Source: a virus | IMG/VR virus record: IMGVR_UViG_3300038660_000028 | Location: 1 to 20,995 of that record | Length of the DNA stretch: 20,995 nt | Reading direction: 5' to 3' (one strand) | Part shown: piece by piece, positions 2,169-20,804 of the stretch | Layout: every line of letters begins with the position of its first letter | How positions within the stretch are numbered: position 1 is the stretch's first letter | The notes under the pieces: generated by a model | Told to the model about the DNA's origin: nothing | Seen by the model: the letters and a program-made list of their open reading frames with translations, nothing else | The model's database searches: none | Program-made: the position numbers and the translations under genes

Positions 2169-5100
2169 AGTCCGCGCCGAGTTCAGCAATCCCCGAAAGC
2201 ATCGAGCGGCCATTCTGGGCGGCCTGTGCTTCCCGCTCCCGCACCGCCCTGCGGAGGTCGGGGTGCCGCTGAAGAAGCTCGTTCCGGGCGGCTTGGCGGT
2301 AGCTGGTGATTACCTTGCGAACCATCTTGATGCGGGGGTTGAGGCTCGGATCGCTGTCGTCAGCGTAGCGCTCCCGGCCTCGGTCGTAGGCTGCCGAATT
2401 GAACACCCGTTCCAGCTCCTGATACAGGGTCCGGTGGGTGGACGGGTTGCGGTACTGGCCGTGCAGGGCGATGTACTCGCTGTACTGCTCCGGTGTCATC
2501 TCCACACCCATGAGCTTCCGGCTTGGGTAGCCCGTCACGCCTTCGCCAAGCTGCGCCAGCTCGTCCAAGACAGTGTCTGCCCGGTACTCGCTCTCATAGA
2601 TCGGCTGCATGGACGCATAGGCATCCGCCAGAGGACCGAATGCGTCTTCGCCAAACCCCTTCGGGAGAGTGATCGGCTCTCCCGTAATCATCGAACGCCG
2701 GGCCGGAAGTGTCGCCGAATATCCGGGGACCGTGTCCTTGATCGCGTCGAGGATTGAGCGGACCTCTCGCATGGCATCGTCGTTGAACCGACGAGACTCT
2801 CGGATCGCTCCAGAGTACGGCATGAAGCTCGTGGTGAGCCGCTGGACGTAGCGCTGCATGAACATCTTCGGCCCGGAGACCGCCTGCGCGAGGTCGACGC
2901 CCCCTTGCAGATAGGTCTTGGAACCTAGGTTGTTCATCACGGCAGTAAGTGCCGCAACACCGACCTCTTCGCCGGTCTTGTCGTCCACCTGCCCGAGGAT
3001 GTCCGCGCTGTCTGCGGCGATGCCGAGAATCGTAGCAAAGGGGTCAAGCCGCCGGTACTCGACGTACTTCTTGTTATCCCCCTCGCCCATGACGAAACTG
3101 TAGGGTCTCCACCCAGTTTCCATGAGACGGCTCCGGGCTTCGGGATCAACAGGCCCGTTGCCGGTGATCCGACCGTCCAAGGCTGCCATGATGGCCGCTC
3201 CCCAGATAAGATTGCCTGTCACCTGCTTACCCCGCGCCGAAGCACGGGTGGCACGATCAGGACTTCGGAGCTGCTCCATGAAGTTCTGAGAGGCCCTGCG
3301 CAGGATAGGCGTCCGTTGTACCGAAGCGACGATCAGGTTGGTCGGTGTCCTGACGAACGGGAACACCACCTTGAGGTAGGGGTGCTTGTTCGTGAGGTTC
3401 TGGAAGCCCCGCGAGAACGAGTTGGGACGCAGTTCGTCGGTGAAGGTCGCCTCCCGAGCGTAATCAATATCCGGCTTCGACCGACCTGTGCCGTCCCGGT
3501 TCACAGCCTGCGCCATGCGGTCTTGGACATAGCCTGCAAGGTCGTCCTTGGTTATCCTCCCCTGCGACACGAGATCAGTCCCCTGCTCCATCAACCGAGC
3601 GTATAGGCTGGACCTGTAGTTGAGCTGCTTGAAGAACTCGTCCCCTGTGGACCGAAGACGGCTGGGGATGCGGATCGCGGTCCCGAGACCGTTGATCAGG
3701 TTGCGAGCGATAGCGTTTTCGGAGGTGGACTGAATAGCCCGGAAGTCCACGCCATTCGCTTCGAGGATCGCGGCCTCGGGGTCCAAGATGTTCCGGCCAG
3801 ACCGCAACGCCAGACTCGCAGCCTGAAGGCTGTCGGATAGGGCCATGCGAAGTCCGTCGAGCTGACGTGCGCCCTGCCTGACGGACTTGGGATCGAGGTT
3901 GACCATGCCACCTAGCATCCGCTCTGTCGGAAGCAGGCCAGTATGGACACTTGAGGATATCAAGTCGATCATGAGCGACCGGGGACCTGACAACAGACCG
4001 TTGATGCGCACCTCGTTGATTACGTCCCAGACCCGGCGGTGGCGCCGTCCAGCGACGCGGAAGATGTCAGACGTAGTGCCGCCCATCTTCTTCTTGGTCA
4101 CGATGTCCCGTGCGAGGCTGTCAAGCTCGCCAATCCCGCCGCCGCGCTCCATCACGTCGTCGAGCTGACGCTGTATGTCCAGATTGGTCAGGTCTTCGCC
4201 GGTCAGGAAGTCAGTAGTCCTGACGCGCCCCGCCGCTGTCGTCTGCGCTGCAGACTTCTGGATCGACTTCACGTCCGACGTAAGCTCAACCACATGCCGA
4301 CGCATCCGGTCGAACCGTGCGTAGATGGCCTTCGGTGCGTTGCCGGTGTCGATCTGTAGGGCGAGGTTCTCGACCTCCCGAGACATGCTCTGGATCAGCC
4401 CCTTGCCCGCCAGAAGAGCGGCCTGTTGCCTGTCGGCGTCCACGGCAGTCCTGCGGAGGAACGTCGAAATGTCGTCAGCAGACCCGTCGATGCTGTCCGC
4501 GAGAAGATCCGTGGCTTCCGAGATCATACCGTCGAAGGACTTTGTCGGCTGAAGAGCGTCTTCAGGAACCGCATCGACAGCCATCCGCAGGAAATCCTGG
4601 GTGGTCATGTCGCTGTCCATCTTCGACCAGTTGAAGAAGTCGAAGTCGAGTGTGTTCGTCGGCACCGTAGGCGCACCGGCCCGGCGAAGGCCAAGCTCTC
4701 GGTAGATCGACTGCTGAAAGCCCTCCTGATCGAACTCGGGCCGGTTGTTGGTGACCTGACTTCGGATGTTGCTTCGCTCTTGGGCGGTGCGGGCAGCGAT
4801 ACTCGCGCCTTCCGAAGCTGCTTCCCCTAGTTCAGAATTGGCCGCGATGGTCGGGGTCGGCTGGCCGTCTGCGTTCTGACCAGTCACACGGACGTCGGGC
4901 CGCGCCGTAGCTGCTTCCCCTAGTTCAGAATTGGCCGCGATGGTCGGGGTCGGCTGGCCGTCTGCGTTCTGACCAGTCACACGGACGTCGGGCCGCGCCG
5001 CATCGGGCACGGGCAGGTTGCTGTCGGAGATTTCATCGAACAGCTCAAGCTGCTCTGGCTCCAGTATGTCGGGGTCGATCTGCGACACCTGCTCTTCCAT

Positions 5101-13602: not shown

Positions 13603-13622
13603 TCTATGGAATGGTGGAACTC
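13603..13622 (-). promoter_or_regulatory. Candidate phage RNA-polymerase promoter upstream of the capsid gene (phi10-like)
   Basis: The minus strand reads GAGTTCCACCATTCCATAGA. It matches 18 of 20 bases at 17383-17402 and 17 of 20 at 2149-2168. It lies just after the o-spanin stop codon and just before a perfect 14-nt hairpin, which would be at the very 5' end of a transcript starting near the right-hand end of the motif. T7 phi10 has both this position and a 5'-terminal hairpin. Confidence 0.75.
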
Positions 13623-15135: not shown

Positions 15136-15357
15136 TCAATAGTCCTCCACATAGACGCCGGGGCGCAGCTCGTAGTGTTGCTTTCGCCCTTGGGCCGGTG
15201 TGTCAGGGGTGCCGAGGTTGCCGACCACAGCGTTGGGCGAGGCCTCGGTTGCCTCGTCTTTCTTGGGGGCAATCGTGTTCTCGGTGTGCTCCTCGGTTAC
15301 CTCAGTGGTCGTCTGGTCAGTTGCCTGTTGGGACTGCTTGCGCTGGCGCTGTGCCAT
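15136..15357 (-). CDS. Small hypothetical protein between portal and scaffold
   Basis: This protein has 73 residues. It starts at the ATG at 15357 with AAGGAAGCG upstream, 41 nt inside the end of the portal gene, and stops 2 nt before the scaffold ATG. It is hydrophilic: a basic, Gln-rich start (MAQRQRKQSQQATDQ), an acidic Thr/Glu middle and the ending YELRPGVYVEDY. There is no membrane segment and no recognised domain. Tight coupling to both neighbours and good ribosome sites make it a real gene. Similar short proteins in this place occur in related phages, so a minor role in head assembly is possible but unproven. Confidence 0.72.
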   Translation of the reverse strand: MAQRQRKQSQQATDQTTTEVTEEHTENTIAPKKDEATEASPNAVVGNLGTPDTPAQGRKQHYELRPGVYVEDY

Positions 15358-16939
15358 TTTCGCTTCCTTCCATTGATTTTTCAGCCATAGATGCGCCCTG
15401 CCGGATCAGCTCTGGTCCTAGCTTGTCCATCATCTGCGCCTGCTGGGCCGCTTCCTGCGACTGCTGTCGGTCCTGTGCCGTCACCAGTAGCCCGCTTGTG
15501 TCGATGCCGTCCGCGACTGCCAGACGGGCGTTCAGCTCATCAGCATTGATGAACTTCGGGAGCTGCTCGGGTCCGTAAATCTCGGCCAGAGTCCGCGCGT
15601 ACCGGATCAGCTTCTCGCGGTCGTGCCCGCGCCCCAGAGCTGCGAACCCGGTCACGATCACCGGTTTCACCTCGGGCGGTATCTCGGGCATGTTCTCCCG
15701 CTTCCTCAAGAGGAACAGACGCCGCTTGACGTAGGGCATCTGGAACTCTTTGGACTGTAGCGAGTAGATGCCGCCGAGACTGTCATCGAGTTCCTGCGCG
15801 ACAAAGCGCACCTCTTCTGCCGTCACACGCTCGGCGTCGCGCAGAACCTCAGAGTTGATCATAAAGGCATGGGCGAGCTGCCGCTCGATCCGTGTGATCA
15901 TGTCCTGAGCGATCCGCAGATCGTTGTACTTGTCGAGCCGCAGGACACTCACGTCGTCAGCGTTACCGCTTCGGATAGAGTTGTTGGGCGCCTTCGCAAG
16001 GGCCTTGGCACTGGTGGTGCCGTTCGGGTTTACCATCCAGACCGTCTTGGCCCCAGCTGTCGCGCTGTCCCTGACGGCTTGTGTCAGAACTTCGAGGCTG
16101 TCCAAGTCGCCAAGGTACATCTCGACGTAGCTACGCCCGTAGTCTTCACCGTCCACGCGGAGGAAGCGCATCGGTATCCACGGGTTCCCGCTCTCGGGCA
16201 CATTGCTTTCGGTGTCGGGAACCTTGCTGCCGTTGATCGACTGGTGCCACTTAACGCGGCCCTTGGACCGGTTGACGTGCGTGTAGACTCGAACGGTCGC
16301 GTTGGGAGATGCCGTCTCAGCTGTCTGCTCGTCGTTCAGAAGCCCCCTCTGCTCTTCGGACAAGGATGCTGGGGAAGTCTCTTCGCAGACAACGACCTCC
16401 AGCCATTTGCCTTGAGGATCGCGGACGACGACGTACTTGTTCAGGTCGAATATCCGGGCGTTGCCCTCTTCAGAGACGTAAAGCAGGCAGTTGCCTGTCA
16501 CCAGAAGGTGCTTCATCGCCTCGAAGACAGCAGTCGTGTCACCTGCCTCTTCGATGTCAGCGACTACGGAGCGTTCGATCACCCCGAGGCCTTTCATAAC
16601 TTCGGCCTTGAGGCTTGCCCCTTCGGCCTCGTCCTGGACACCTGCCTCCTGTTCCATGGCCTGCATCGCAAGCTCGTCCACGTTTAGCTTGAAGAACGGT
16701 GTGTTCATCGGAAGCAGGGAAATCAACAGCTTGGACGCGAGGTTGTTGACGCCACGGGCGCCGAGGCTGTGGACAGGGTCTTTGATGTTGCCCCGGTTGC
16801 CTTTGGTTGTCAGGTTCCGGTCGTAAAGCGTCGGCAGCGTCAGCTTAGCACAGCGGTCAGCACGTTGCTCAAACTCTGAACGCTCGGACTGGAGTTGGCT
16901 GTACCGGCTGGCGGCGTTGCCTTTGTTCTCTGCTGCCAT
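15317..16939 (-). CDS. Portal / head-tail connector protein (T7 gp8-like)
   Basis: This protein has 540 residues, against 536 for T7 gp8. The ATG at 16939 has GAGAGGG upstream, and the previous gene stops 6 nt before it. Diagnostic segments include RSEFEQRADRCAKLTLPTL, LGARGVNNLASKLLISLLP, NTPFFKLNVDE, the VRDPQGKWLEVVV tract and the INSEVLRDAERVTAEEVRF stretch. The protein forms the ring at the unique capsid vertex through which DNA is packaged and ejected. The C-terminal ~60 residues are Gln/Ala-rich and probably flexible. The start of the 73-aa gene is nested in its last 41 nt. Confidence 0.94.
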   Translation of the reverse strand: MAAENKGNAASRYSQLQSERSEFEQRADRCAKLTLPTLYDRNLTTKGNRGNIKDPVHSLGARGVNNLASKLLISLLPMNTPFFKLNVDELAMQAMEQEAGVQDEAEGASLKAEVMKGLGVIERSVVADIEEAGDTTAVFEAMKHLLVTGNCLLYVSEEGNARIFDLNKYVVVRDPQGKWLEVVVCEETSPASLSEEQRGLLNDEQTAETASPNATVRVYTHVNRSKGRVKWHQSINGSKVPDTESNVPESGNPWIPMRFLRVDGEDYGRSYVEMYLGDLDSLEVLTQAVRDSATAGAKTVWMVNPNGTTSAKALAKAPNNSIRSGNADDVSVLRLDKYNDLRIAQDMITRIERQLAHAFMINSEVLRDAERVTAEEVRFVAQELDDSLGGIYSLQSKEFQMPYVKRRLFLLRKRENMPEIPPEVKPVIVTGFAALGRGHDREKLIRYARTLAEIYGPEQLPKFINADELNARLAVADGIDTSGLLVTAQDRQQSQEAAQQAQMMDKLGPELIRQGASMAEKSMEGSENGTAPAQAVPTGN

Positions 16940-16945
16940 GTCGGA

Positions 16946-17185
16946 TTACCCTCTCGGTACGCTCAAGCCGCTGTCGCGTCTCGCCTCGCGGGAGAGAGGA
17001 ACAACCAGCGAGCTAGTGTCTGTGGGTCGGACGGAGCCGGGCCGCATGTTTCTGGACCGACGCGGGCCTCTTCGGCCTGCCCCTACGCGAAAGCCTTCGG
17101 CGGTATCTGCGGGAGGTGGCGGCGCGTCGGGCGTGACCGGCGGCGGTGGGGTATTCGGGGGCTTAGGCGGCGAAGGTGCACACAT
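16946..17185 (-). CDS. Small proline-rich conserved phage protein
   Basis: This protein has 79 residues. It begins MCAPSPPKPPNTPPPPVTPD, a proline-rich arm. A basic tract (GRRGPRRSRNMRPG) follows and the end is SREARRDSGLSVPRG. The ATG at 17185 directly abuts the stop of the 60-aa gene (TGAATG), with GGGGAGG inside that gene as ribosome site, so translation is probably coupled. It stops 6 nt before the portal ATG. Proteins with a Cys-Pro-rich start and a Gly-Leu-hydrophobic-Pro end before the portal are familiar to me from other T7-like phages. They are always annotated as hypothetical. A virion-associated or assembly role is a guess from location. The start MCAP is shared with the 191-aa core protein. 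Confidence 0.75.
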   Translation of the reverse strand: MCAPSPPKPPNTPPPPVTPDAPPPPADTAEGFRVGAGRRGPRRSRNMRPGSVRPTDTSSLVVPLSREARRDSGLSVPRG

Positions 17186-17368
17186 TCAGTCCTCCCCTTC
17201 TTCTTGACGTTTCTGGACAGCCCGTAGATGACGGATCACCTCCGCATTCCCAAATACAACGGACGGGTCCGCTTTCGACGGATCAACGGCCCGATCTGGG
17301 AATACATTCTCAAGGTAGCGAATGAGTGCGGTGGGTATCTCGGGGCATGTATGAGTGGCGTGGTCCAT
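17186..17368 (-). CDS. Small conserved phage protein, first gene of the late module
   Basis: This protein has 60 residues. The ATG at 17368 has GAGAGAGGT upstream and lies 14 nt after the promoter-like motif, so it would be the first gene of that transcript. The segment CPEIPTALIRYLENVFPDR and the later EVIRHLRAVQKRQEE resemble a family of short uncharacterised podovirus proteins. The predicted structure is mostly helical with no membrane segment. Codons 49-57 lie in a 26-bp sequence that is repeated, with one mismatch, in front of the DNA methyltransferase gene at 19061-19086. Function unknown. Confidence 0.78.
   Translation of the reverse strand: MDHATHTCPEIPTALIRYLENVFPDRAVDPSKADPSVVFGNAEVIRHLRAVQKRQEEGED
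17198..17223. repeat. 26-bp direct repeat, copy B (inside the 60-aa gene)
   Basis: The plus-strand sequence starts TTCTTCTTGACGTTTCTGGA and ends AGCCC. It is identical to 19061-19086 at 25 of 26 positions; the mismatch is C at 17218 against A at 19081. In this copy the sequence codes for AVQKRQEE near the C-terminus of the 60-aa protein. The two copies are in the same orientation, 1863 bp apart, and bracket the methyltransferase. Confidence 0.95.
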
Positions 17369-17382
17369 GGTGCGGACCTCTC

Positions 17383-17402
17383 TCTGTGGAATGGTGGAAC
17401 TT
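17383..17402 (-). promoter_or_regulatory. Candidate phage RNA-polymerase promoter at the start of the late module
   Basis: The minus strand reads AAGTTCCACCATTCCACAGA and matches the 13603-13622 site at 18 of 20 bases. It lies between the methyltransferase stop and the 60-aa gene, so it would drive the small proteins, the portal and the genes after them. A transcript starting near its end would have a leader of only about 15 nt containing the ribosome site. Confidence 0.75.
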
Positions 17403-17416
17403 TAGGTGGAACCTAA
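17402..17416. repeat. 15-nt inverted repeat beside the promoter motif
   Basis: The arms ttaggt and acctaa are separated by gga. Within it, the 8-mer GTTCCACC (minus strand, 17405-17412) repeats the promoter core (17393-17400) exactly 12 nt upstream. It could be a partial second promoter, an operator, or a relic of duplication. It is seen only at this site. Confidence 0.6.
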
Positions 17417-17449
17417 TCGGAGAAAGGCCCGGTTCACGCTGGAAATCGA

Positions 17450-19039
17450 CTAGGCGGGCAAGCGTTGCCGCCGGTCGCGCAGGGTGGCCCACGCCGCTAG
17501 CAGGTCCATCTGTTCGGCCTTGGTGAGCGCCCCCAGCACCGCCTCAGACTGCACTTCCATCGTGTCGGCAACTGTGTCCTCGCGGACCATGCGGTCCAGC
17601 CGTTCCACGTCTGGCATGATGCCTTCGGGGGCGGGCAGTGGTAGCTTCTTTACCTCGGAAGGCATCAGTTCCAGCACGCCACCACCGGAGTGACGTCCTT
17701 CCAGTTCCGCGCTTAGGGCGGTGAGGCTGTTGAAGAACCCGTACACCAGCCCCCGCGATGTGCCGCGCAGCGCCCGGATGCGGTAGACGGTATCCGTCGT
17801 GTAAGCCCCGGCGCGGTTGAGGATAAGGCGCGGCGTGTCGTGGATGCACCTGGGCATTCCGACTTCAGTGGCAGACACCGAGCGCACCGTATACCACGGC
17901 TTGCGGATGCGGCACGCGTATCGCTTATGCAAGTTTTCGTACTCGCCCGATGCGATGTAGGCGCGGCCCTTGGCAGTGTCTTCCACCGACCCGTCCAGCC
18001 ATAGGAAATTGGTTGGCTTGCCGGTGGCCGCGTTCCTAGCGTGCTGTGCGTCATCGTAGATAACGCCGGGGCAGTGGGCGCTGCGCCCGAACATCGGATG
18101 CGCCCACTCCTGCAAACCGTACCGCTGTACTACGTCGTCGGTGACGAGGAAGAACTTGTTGGCCCCAGTGCTGATGCCTACACCCACCTTGGCAGCATCG
18201 TCGAACCGACAGAATCGGTCACTGGCCTCTATCTCATCCAGAATCGCCAACGTGGCAGGCGGCACCAGTGCTCGGGTCCATTTGCCCTGCACCGTCTTGC
18301 CGTTGATCGCGCGAGGCGCTGCGAACACTGCCTCCGGATCTTGCCACAGAAAGTCGCGGCCCGCCACGCGGTGGATGCCTAACCCTTCGCCATAAACATC
18401 CGGGCGGGCCTTCTTTTCGGCCAAGAGCAGCACCGTACCTTGTTGGGTGCCCTCGAACCAGATTTCTTGGGGGTCCACGATGACTGTGCGGCGGCACTGC
18501 TCGCCCAGATAGGTCCGCAGTGACTGCGCTTGTATGGCGTGTACGATCTCGGACGGCACCACCATCGCGAGCCGTCCGCCGGGCCGCAGCAATTCCATAG
18601 ACGCAAGGATAAAAGTAACCCAAGCGTTCGTGTACTTCGTGAATTTGCACCCCAGCCGCGCGAACACACGTTCCGCGTTGGTCTGAAAGGCGGCAGACAG
18701 GTACTGGAAGCGGACGAAAGGCGGATTGCCGACCACCGCGTCGAACTGTCCACCCTGGCTTTCCAGCGCCCAACCGAGAAAGTCACGGTTGTGGACGGTG
18801 CAGTTGGACAGGCCCCGTGCGGCTGCCTTGGCGGCTTCCTCCGGTGCCAGCTCGAACGCGGTGACGCTTGCCCCTGTGCCCTGCAATGTGGGGAAAAACG
18901 CGCCATCGCCACAGCTAGGTTCTAGAACGCGCGTGTCCGCCGTGGGCGCGACCCAGCGAGTCAGGAATGCGGCGAGGTCGTCGGGAGTGTAGTATCCACC
19001 GCGCAGTCTCTGCTCTGTTTCCAACGCTATGAAGTTCAT
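17450..19039 (-). CDS. Solitary N6-adenine DNA methyltransferase
   Basis: This protein has 529 residues. The ATG at 19039 has CAGGAG at 8 nt. Near the N-terminus RGGYYTPDDLAAFLTRW leads into the SAM-binding motif I, VLEPSCGDGAFF (38-49). The catalytic motif IV is NPPF (105-108). This order and the NPPF signature indicate a gamma-type N6-adenine methyltransferase, like those of type II systems with a C-terminal target-recognition region (here ~250-480). The N-terminus resembles methyltransferases that I recall paired with XamI-type endonucleases. No endonuclease gene is present on either side, so the likely role is protection of phage DNA against host restriction. It sits between the reductase and the first late promoter and is bracketed by 26-bp repeats, which suggests acquired cargo. 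The target sequence cannot be read from the protein. Confidence 0.9.
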   Translation of the reverse strand: MNFIALETEQRLRGGYYTPDDLAAFLTRWVAPTADTRVLEPSCGDGAFFPTLQGTGASVTAFELAPEEAAKAAARGLSNCTVHNRDFLGWALESQGGQFDAVVGNPPFVRFQYLSAAFQTNAERVFARLGCKFTKYTNAWVTFILASMELLRPGGRLAMVVPSEIVHAIQAQSLRTYLGEQCRRTVIVDPQEIWFEGTQQGTVLLLAEKKARPDVYGEGLGIHRVAGRDFLWQDPEAVFAAPRAINGKTVQGKWTRALVPPATLAILDEIEASDRFCRFDDAAKVGVGISTGANKFFLVTDDVVQRYGLQEWAHPMFGRSAHCPGVIYDDAQHARNAATGKPTNFLWLDGSVEDTAKGRAYIASGEYENLHKRYACRIRKPWYTVRSVSATEVGMPRCIHDTPRLILNRAGAYTTDTVYRIRALRGTSRGLVYGFFNSLTALSAELEGRHSGGGVLELMPSEVKKLPLPAPEGIMPDVERLDRMVREDTVADTMEVQSEAVLGALTKAEQMDLLAAWATLRDRRQRLPA

Positions 19040-19060
19040 ATGGTCAGCTCCTGTATCGTG

Positions 19061-19086
19061 TTCTTCTTGACGTTTCTGGAAAGCCC
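19061..19086. repeat. 26-bp direct repeat, copy A (between reductase and methyltransferase)
   Basis: This matches 17198-17223 at 25 of 26 positions. It fills nearly half of the 55-nt gap between the reductase stop and the methyltransferase ATG. Its QKRQEE codons happen to be in frame with that ATG, but no start codon precedes them, so they are probably not translated. It may be the remaining 3' end of a duplicated 60-aa gene. Confidence 0.95.
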
Positions 19087-19094
19087 ACGCACGA

Positions 19095-20804
19095 TCAGTC
19101 GCAGGATCGATGCCCGGTCTCTGGGTTGATGTAGCAGGCGGCGCCTTCTGCCTCCGCTTCCTGCGTAGGCTCTTCGACGGCGTTCATAATGCCGTAGCGC
19201 TTGCCCGCTGCGCGGAACGTGGTGCATCCCTTGGCGCCCAGTCGGTAGGCCTCCAAGTAGACGTCCTTGAACTCTTCAAAGGTGACGTCGTCCCCGATGT
19301 TGCAGGTCTTGGAACAGGCGCTGTCCACCCATCGCTGAAATGTGGTCAGGACTGCGACATGCTCTTTTGGGGATAGCTCGTTTGCTGTCCGACCAGCCAC
19401 GCCGCAGTTCGCATAGGCATAGTCCTGCAGCTTCACGACGCGGTTGCCGTCCCATTCCTTGACCGTTCGGCTCATGTCGAGCATGAACGGCGGCTCAAGT
19501 GCGCTGGAGATATTGTCAGCCGCGAAAGAGATCGAGCCGGTCGGGGCGATGGACGTCAGGTGCGAATTGCGGATGCCATGCACCTTAATCAGGTCGAGTG
19601 TCTCGCCTTCCAGCTTCTGGATGAACGCGCCTTCCATGTACCGATCTTTGTCGTACAACGGGAACGCGCCCTTCTCGCGGGCGAGGTTTGCAGATGCGCG
19701 GTAGCATTCGTTCACGAAGACCTGCATCACACCGTCACACCAGTCGAGGTAATCGGGGCTAGCATAGGGCATCCCCATGACTTCGCCCGCATTGGCGACC
19801 CCGGTCGCGCCGAGACCCATGCGCCGCTTCGCACTCGCCTCTGCCTCTTGCTCGGGCAGGGGGTAGACCGTCCGGTCGATCACGTTGTCCATTGCTCGGA
19901 CCATGACGTGAACATCTTCGCGCAACTGTTCGACATCAAAGTACGGGGACAGAGCCACGCTCCTGACGTACTTGATCCAGTTGAAGCTGCCCAACAGACA
20001 CGCGCCGTATGGTGGCAGGGGCTGCTCTCCGCAGGGGTTGGTCGCGGCAATGCTCTCGCAGTACCAGAGGTTGTTCATCTGGTTCACGCGGTCGATGAAG
20101 ATGACGCCCGGCTCGGCATAGTCCCAAGTCGCAGCCATGATCTCTTCCCACAGGTCGCGGGCGCGGAGGGTCTCGTAGACCGCTCCCTCGAAGACCAGGT
20201 CAAAGTCGCCGTCTGTCTCGACAGCGTCCATGAAAGCGTCGGTGACGCCGATCGAGACATTGAAGTTGGTGAGGTTGTGGTCGTTCATCTTGGCTTTGAT
20301 GAAGGCCCGGATGTCTGGGTGATCGACCCGCAGGACGCCCATCTGTGCGCCCCGGCGATCCCCTGCCGAAGCCACTGTCCCGCAAGTCGCGTCGAACGGC
20401 GTCATAAAGGACACGGCTCCTGACGCCTTGCTGCCGAGGGTCTTGATTAGGTCGCCGCGCGGGCGGATCGTCGAGAAGTCGTAGCCAATGCCGCCGCCCA
20501 TCTTCATCGTCAGCGCGGCTTCCTTCACACGGTCCATGATGCCCGACATGCTGTCAGGCAGGGTTCCCGAGACGAAGCAGTTGAACGCCGTCACGGTTCG
20601 GAAGCTGCCAGCGGCTGCCTGTACGCGACCCGCAGGAAGGAAGCGGTGGTCCACGAGGATCTCGTAGATCGCCCGCTCGTGGGCAGCATCATCGGCCAGC
20701 GCATGGGCAATCCGTGTCATGGCATCGGTGAAGCTCTCGCCCGGCTGCCAGTGCTTCTCTTCGGCAACCTGCCGACATTCGGGGACTTGTGGTCCGTATC
20801 TCAT
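19095..20804 (-). CDS. nrdJ: Class II (adenosylcobalamin-dependent) ribonucleotide reductase
   Basis: This protein has 569 residues. It starts at the ATG at 20804 with AAGGA upstream. It reduces ribonucleotides to deoxyribonucleotides for phage DNA synthesis. Visible features are LPAGRVQAAAG, the FNCFVSG cysteine (C76), KMGGGIGYDFSTIRPRGD (101-118), GDRRGAQMG (148-156), and the NPCGEQPLPPYGACLLGS block (256-273). That block includes the radical-site cysteine C258, the glutamate E260 and the redox cysteine C269. A further cysteine pair near the C-terminus (C557, C568) could pass electrons from thioredoxin. The size, the single-chain gene and the absence of a small radical subunit beside it indicate class II. 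Activity would then depend on cobalamin in the host cell. It lies just upstream of the methyltransferase and the late module. Confidence 0.92.
   Translation of the reverse strand: MRYGPQVPECRQVAEEKHWQPGESFTDAMTRIAHALADDAAHERAIYEILVDHRFLPAGRVQAAAGSFRTVTAFNCFVSGTLPDSMSGIMDRVKEAALTMKMGGGIGYDFSTIRPRGDLIKTLGSKASGAVSFMTPFDATCGTVASAGDRRGAQMGVLRVDHPDIRAFIKAKMNDHNLTNFNVSIGVTDAFMDAVETDGDFDLVFEGAVYETLRARDLWEEIMAATWDYAEPGVIFIDRVNQMNNLWYCESIAATNPCGEQPLPPYGACLLGSFNWIKYVRSVALSPYFDVEQLREDVHVMVRAMDNVIDRTVYPLPEQEAEASAKRRMGLGATGVANAGEVMGMPYASPDYLDWCDGVMQVFVNECYRASANLAREKGAFPLYDKDRYMEGAFIQKLEGETLDLIKVHGIRNSHLTSIAPTGSISFAADNISSALEPPFMLDMSRTVKEWDGNRVVKLQDYAYANCGVAGRTANELSPKEHVAVLTTFQRWVDSACSKTCNIGDDVTFEEFKDVYLEAYRLGAKGCTTFRAAGKRYGIMNAVEEPTQEAEAEGAACYINPETGHRSCD

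Follow-up and report, generated by a model that had tools for sequence, protein, structure and literature searches.

Morons are extra genes inserted in phage genomes, and Murphy et al. (2013; cited in PMC10286901 and PMC12707154) are said to have described phage orphan DNA methyltransferases of bacterial origin. The established role of orphan methyltransferases is protection against a cognate nuclease (PMC10286901; PMC12707154). Homeologous or illegitimate recombination contributes to phage mosaicism, as studied with lambda Red and genes about 22% diverged (Martinsohn et al. 2008, PMC2327257). Here we analysed a 20,995-nucleotide stretch of viral DNA (IMG/VR record IMGVR_UViG_3300038660_000028; hereafter the window) in which a methyltransferase gene is enclosed by a 26-nt direct repeat. 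Like phage orphan methyltransferases, this predicted enzyme is a solitary type II enzyme, nested among bacterial restriction-modification enzymes and without an adjacent nuclease gene. Unlike them, it retains the end of a nuclease gene and part of a bacterial leader, so that one can read off both edges as well as the arrangement at the source. It is moron-like in being a single cargo gene, absent from relatives, between two conserved genes; unlike morons, it has no promoter or terminator of its own that we could find and no deviant G+C, and its insertion destroyed a phage hairpin rather than bringing one. As in the recombination described by Martinsohn et al., diverged sequences seem to have been joined at a similar stretch, but here that stretch is about 14 nt and the phage is T7-like. 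A phage orphan methyltransferase of bacterial origin is a known kind of gene; the detail preserved at both edges is unusual, and our literature search found no retained nuclease remnants beside phage orphan methyltransferases.

By gene content and order, the virus is a T7-like podovirus. The contig, which lacks the early region, encodes a portal, a T7-type capsid and internal virion proteins in T7 order (Autographiviridae-type), an assignment based on PF12236, PF21703, phrog_449, phrog_267 and phrog_6651 together with synteny. The minus strand reads, in order, a class II-type ribonucleotide reductase (RNR; 19095..20804; Pfam PF02867, E=4e-110), the methyltransferase, a 60-aa gene (phrog_4970; 17186..17368), a 79-aa proline-rich small gene (MCAPSPPKPP..; 16946..17185) and the portal, or head-tail connector (15317..16939; PF12236, E=8e-73). 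The reductase C-terminus is intact (ending ..GHRSCD at its stop) and aligns with those of L059, L102 and L103, and the 79-aa gene is syntenic in relatives (compare MCSAPDIKAPPPPP in L059). Family match and alignments identify the 60-aa gene as conserved in T7-like phages: it aligns with small pre-portal genes of Autographiviridae phages of Prochlorococcus, Pelagibacter, Roseobacter and Aeromonas, and is matched (E < 0.01) in 69 of the first 80 portal-containing contigs retrieved, most of the remaining 11 starting too near the portal to judge. Elsewhere in the window, a 1237-aa internal virion protein gene carries an in-frame 93-bp tandem duplication (4812-4997; 99% identical; 31 aa, ARPDVRVTGQNADGQPTPTIAANSELGEAA..).

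The first-pass annotation had reported a direct repeat around the methyltransferase, 25/26 identical and in the same orientation, and we confirmed it on the minus strand at 19061-19086 (copy 1) and 17198-17223 (copy 2). On the transcribed strand the sole mismatch is G/T (GGGCTGTCCAGAAACGTCAAGAAGAA vs GGGCTTTCCAGAAACGTCAAGAAGAA). Even when three mismatches are tolerated, the repeat is present at two places only within the 20,995 bases (0/100 shuffles), and BLAST of copy 1 against the copy-2 region gave E = 4e-7. In agreement with that annotation, copy 1 lies in the gap between reductase and methyltransferase and copy 2 is coding. We place copy 1 at 8 nt past the reductase stop (19095-19097) and 21 nt ahead of the methyltransferase ATG; copy 2 encodes AVQKRQEE at the end of the 60-aa gene, in the conserved C-terminus (..VIRHLRAVQKRQEE). 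The copies do enclose the methyltransferase, one phage promoter and most (~80%) of the 60-aa gene. The 8-nt spacer between reductase stop and copy 1, read from the sequence as TCGTGCGT (19087..19094, minus strand), has no match within the relatives' intergenic region. At the copy-2 site L103 reads CGGGCTGTCCAGCTGGAGCAAGAGGAA (CGGGCTGTCCAG......CAAGAGGAA), which implies that, for the phage gene, both the left part (CGGGCTGTCCAG) and CAAGARGAA represent the ancestral state. Judged by this comparison, the 60-aa gene has its native 3' end in copy 2, and copy 1 is a duplicate derived from it; the middle of the repeat (AAACGT) varies among relatives and alone does not decide the direction of copying.

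Searches beyond the window gave little further trace of the repeat. Phage and plasmid BLAST yielded chance-level matches only, and a 20-mer search of viral contigs found one match, in L003. There, 24 nt exact to copy 2, plus GGGG, occur at 2323-2346 of an unrelated 65.8-kb viral contig; the match is apparently non-coding, opposite to local transcription and otherwise without similarity, and is followed by an inverted repeat GGGGGTGAC...GTCACCCCC. It is probably due to chance. Taken at face value, this match would join the shared orientation and high identity of the two copies in favouring a functional element (a regulatory site, a recombination site or a transposon target duplication) that flanks the methyltransferase by chance. 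We consider such an element very improbable: there are only two copies in 21 kb, relatives do not carry the sequence as a repeat, and copy 2 encodes part of a conserved gene. We saw neither integrase nor transposase genes at the site and found the 20-mer in none of 84,980 genomes, and the true cassette edges, a nuclease tail and a leader, do not coincide with the repeats. Particular roles were also considered and dropped. The phage promoter is a different motif, no terminator-like site (nor any sigma-70-like site) rose above chance in 16900-19300, a target-site duplication is at odds with copy 2 lying inside a native gene, beyond the right edge of the cassette (~17427), and a homing or integrase site was likewise set aside.

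Relatives of the phage provide a view of the site without its cargo. We located the nearest ones by scans with reductase and portal alignments, which were needed because a single-protein portal scan returned no close relative. Identities for reductase, 60-aa gene and portal are 60%, 70% and 57% in L102 (= L232), 62%, 69% and about 59-61% in L103, and 63%, 43% and 56% in L228. In all three, what comes after the reductase stop is a short hairpin region, then the promoter motif (R)GTKCCACCATYCY and then the 60-aa gene; a methyltransferase and a second copy of the 60-aa gene end are both absent. The simple reductase/60-aa junction recurs in thirteen loci beyond L102/L103; the reductase is the gene immediately ahead of the 60-aa gene, at most about 110 bases away, in L059, L115-L117, L127, L143, L155/L160, L164, L167, L169, L172 and L175. 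This is the outcome anticipated by the first-pass annotation, which had proposed comparing the reductase-portal interval and expected relatives lacking the methyltransferase to hold a single copy at a simple junction. The outcomes it had named as contrary, both copies persisting in such relatives or the repeat scattered without cargo, did not materialise: the repeat is not scattered, and among the relatives examined none has a second repeat copy or a matching methyltransferase. The gene ahead of the 60-aa gene varies, being an exonuclease in 24/60 cases, a large or small reductase chain in 13/60, PhoH in 4/60 and others besides, in a sample that includes a few loci picked for their reductase or for nearness; the boundary between metabolic and structural modules is therefore a variable place. 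Near the same slot, the T7-like marine phage L014 (KT997847) carries a cytosine-5 methyltransferase in two annotated pieces (L014:2274-3110), possibly an independent methyltransferase gain.

The captured gene (17450..19039, minus strand) is predicted to encode an N6-adenine-type DNA methyltransferase of 529 aa. It matches PF22837, PF02384 and PF07669 and, over its full length, the PADLOC MTase_II model PDLC03267 (E=7e-171), with the catalytic NPPF motif aligned at residues 105-108. The protein is 81-86% identical to Rhodobacterales enzymes (86% to L184) and about 60% identical to plasmid relatives, and it nests within a Rhodobacterales clade with support 99/99; no relatives were found in 50,697 phage records. 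Its G+C is not deviant (0.629 vs 0.607). Comparison with L184, which includes the bacterial branch, gave dN 0.075 and dS 0.73 (dN/dS about 0.1), consistent with purifying selection, and a dS of this size to the nearest known donor implies that the true donor is unsampled. At the bacterial loci checked, a convergent PLD-like nuclease gene overlaps or abuts the methyltransferase stop, whereas the phage gene adjoins no cognate nuclease gene and has the reductase and 60-aa genes as neighbours. One Roseovarius chromosome record (OX638333) holds this methyltransferase locus in five near-identical copies (L186-L190).

Both edges of the insertion can be delimited by alignment. Past the methyltransferase stop, TCGATTTCCAGCGTGAACCGGGCC is identical to L184 over 17 nt, or 20 nt counting a TAG (TAGTCGATTTCCAGCGTGAA). 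Its opposite strand encodes ARFTLEID followed by a stop, the C-terminus of the nuclease (NPACFTLEID in L184, DPSRFTLEID in L186, DPTRFTLEID in L192). This plus-strand scar (17427..17453), the last 8-9 codons of the convergent PLD-like restriction nuclease gene with the two stops overlapping, indicates that the gene was lost save its end. Beyond it comes GGCCTTTCTCCGATTAGG, the 3' arm of an intergenic phage hairpin (GGCCTTTCTCC; 17419..17429, minus strand) that is intact in L103 and L235 (GTGGCCTTCCGATTAGG); here the 5' arm is missing, which marks where the cassette meets phage DNA on the right. Next comes a partial extra copy of the promoter (TTAGGTTCCACC), ahead of the phage promoter-like motif itself (AAGTTCCACCATTCC) (17384..17416, minus strand); the motif occupies the same place in L102, L103, L228, L233 and L235. 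On the left, a retained bacterial leader with a ribosome-binding site (CACGATACAGGAGCTGACCAT; 19040..19060, minus strand) aligns with the leaders of L184, L185, L186, L191, L220 and L017, with CACGATACAGGAGC upstream of the ATG corresponding to CACGAAACAGGGGC in L184. The similarity runs on into copy 1 (AACGTCAAGAAGAA vs AACGCAGTAAGAG or AACGTAATAAGAA), where leaders of bacterial methyltransferases can be aligned with the right 14 nt as well (19061-19074). It exceeds 500/500 shuffles for L184 and L186, and the two repeat copies are the only 2 of 41,962 window 14-mers that fit the L186 leader as well. Because the similarity continues into copy 1, the left joint lies inside the repeat, in a stretch over which the end of the 60-aa gene resembles the bacterial leader. 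A further 'ATCGT..CGTGGG' match to the L185 leader, left of copy 1, was rejected as too weak, the local alignment having stopped short of it.

These alignments show a cassette of ~21-35 nt of bacterial leader, the methyltransferase and 27 nt of nuclease-gene tail, flanked by the reductase stop on one side and the 60-aa/portal operon promoter on the other, where relatives have a hairpin and promoter only. Its insertion broke the phage hairpin and left the 3' arm, and copy 1, by the same alignments, is a 26-nt duplicate of the 60-aa gene 3' end joined to the left edge of the cassette. The bacterial phylogeny, the retained nuclease-gene tail and the retained leader mark the methyltransferase as cargo independently of the repeat; on this evidence it is the predicted methyltransferase of a Rhodobacterales type II restriction-modification pair. 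Together with the empty site in relatives, they bear out the earlier proposal that the repeat is a scar of cargo insertion. The scar points to Rhodobacterales as host or gene source, and the hosts of the virus are probably Rhodobacterales bacteria. An assembly artefact fusing two related templates might be suspected in an uncultured-virus contig, but it is scarcely credible here: the parts at the junctions are biologically sensible (an intact reductase end, a leader, a nuclease tail and a conserved promoter), and usual assembly k-mers are longer than the 26 nt of the repeat.

How the duplicate arose can be approached from the arrangement of the joints. The first-pass annotation had offered two routes, arrival of the methyltransferase by recombination at the repeated sequence or duplication of the 60-aa gene with erosion of the first copy. 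The former fits best, because the repeat resembles the methyltransferase's own leader; duplication and erosion may be its by-product. We propose that a T7-like phage took up one half of a Rhodobacterales type II pair, the methyltransferase, and lost the other, the nuclease, save its last codons. On the left, the 60-aa gene end (AACGTCAAGAAGAA) would have recombined with the bacterial leader that resembles it (AACG(C/T)AATAAGAA); on the right, the joint would have formed in the hairpin that precedes the 60-aa gene. The cassette adjoins phage sequence from the downstream end of that gene at its left edge and sequence from upstream of it at its right edge, and an insertion with joints crossed in this way would bring with it a duplication of the promoter and the 60-aa gene. 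The two routes of the first-pass annotation are thereby combined. The opposite order would delete the conserved 60-aa gene, and such products would probably be lost. The left duplicate would later have been deleted down to its last 26 nt, leaving the methyltransferase to be read through from the reductase. We found no intermediate in which more of the left duplicate survives, so duplication followed by deletion is argued from geometry alone.

We favour this whole account, capture by recombination at the repeat with duplication of the 60-aa gene and loss of the first copy except 26 nt, with moderate confidence. The same capture could instead have left copy 1 as a short templated patch, in which a microhomology-mediated join or a later gene-conversion tract transferred ~26 nt from the end of the 60-aa gene to the leader and a full 60-aa duplicate never existed. 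Such a patch would look alike: copy 1 is exactly the stretch flanked on the right by leader similarity, no larger piece of the 60-aa gene survives there, and high identity suggests a recent short tract. The 25/26 identity of a non-coding copy 1 indeed suggests that the repeat is young, and set against the dS of 0.73 to the nearest donor it means that the repeat could postdate capture. We nevertheless regard the patch as rather unlikely, since it requires an additional template switch, whereas the crossed joints on the phage map alone predict a duplication. Going back to capture with duplication, we suggest more tentatively that one non-allelic, similarity-guided recombination with host DNA allowed a lytic T7-like phage to gain a gene, duplicate a conserved neighbour and then shed the duplicate, with a 26-nt footprint left behind. 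If true, such a footprint would let one read how lytic phages acquire cargo while keeping their conserved genes. The edges of a capture are seldom both readable; in this case one can still see the tail of the lost nuclease gene, the bacterial leader and the phage-side duplicate, which together provide a model of cargo capture in T7-like phages that is concrete and testable.

By analogy with the established role of orphan methyltransferases, the phage enzyme may premethylate phage DNA against a cognate host nuclease. It is likely expressed by read-through from the reductase, because our search revealed neither a promoter nor a terminator belonging to it and the hairpin that follows the reductase was broken by the insertion. 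Recombination between the 26-nt copies would delete the methyltransferase, the promoter and most of the conserved 60-aa gene, so that it is unlikely to serve as a switch and is probably a dead end. A motif AGTTCCACCATTCC/AACA recurs before genes on the minus strand (17384-17403, 13603-13621 and 2149-2167), is syntenic in L102, L103, L228 and L233-L235, and is likely the promoter of a phage RNA polymerase. Beside the right joint of the cassette, the promoter core has a partial tandem copy (TTAGGTTCCACC TAAAGTTCCACC; 17384-17416), where relatives have a single one. A long hairpin is also predicted on the minus strand at 17366-17429, in which GGGCCTTTCTCC pairs with GAGAGAGGTCC around the promoter in a layout not found in relatives; the whole-gap fold around the promoter has a predicted energy of -23.9 kcal/mol.
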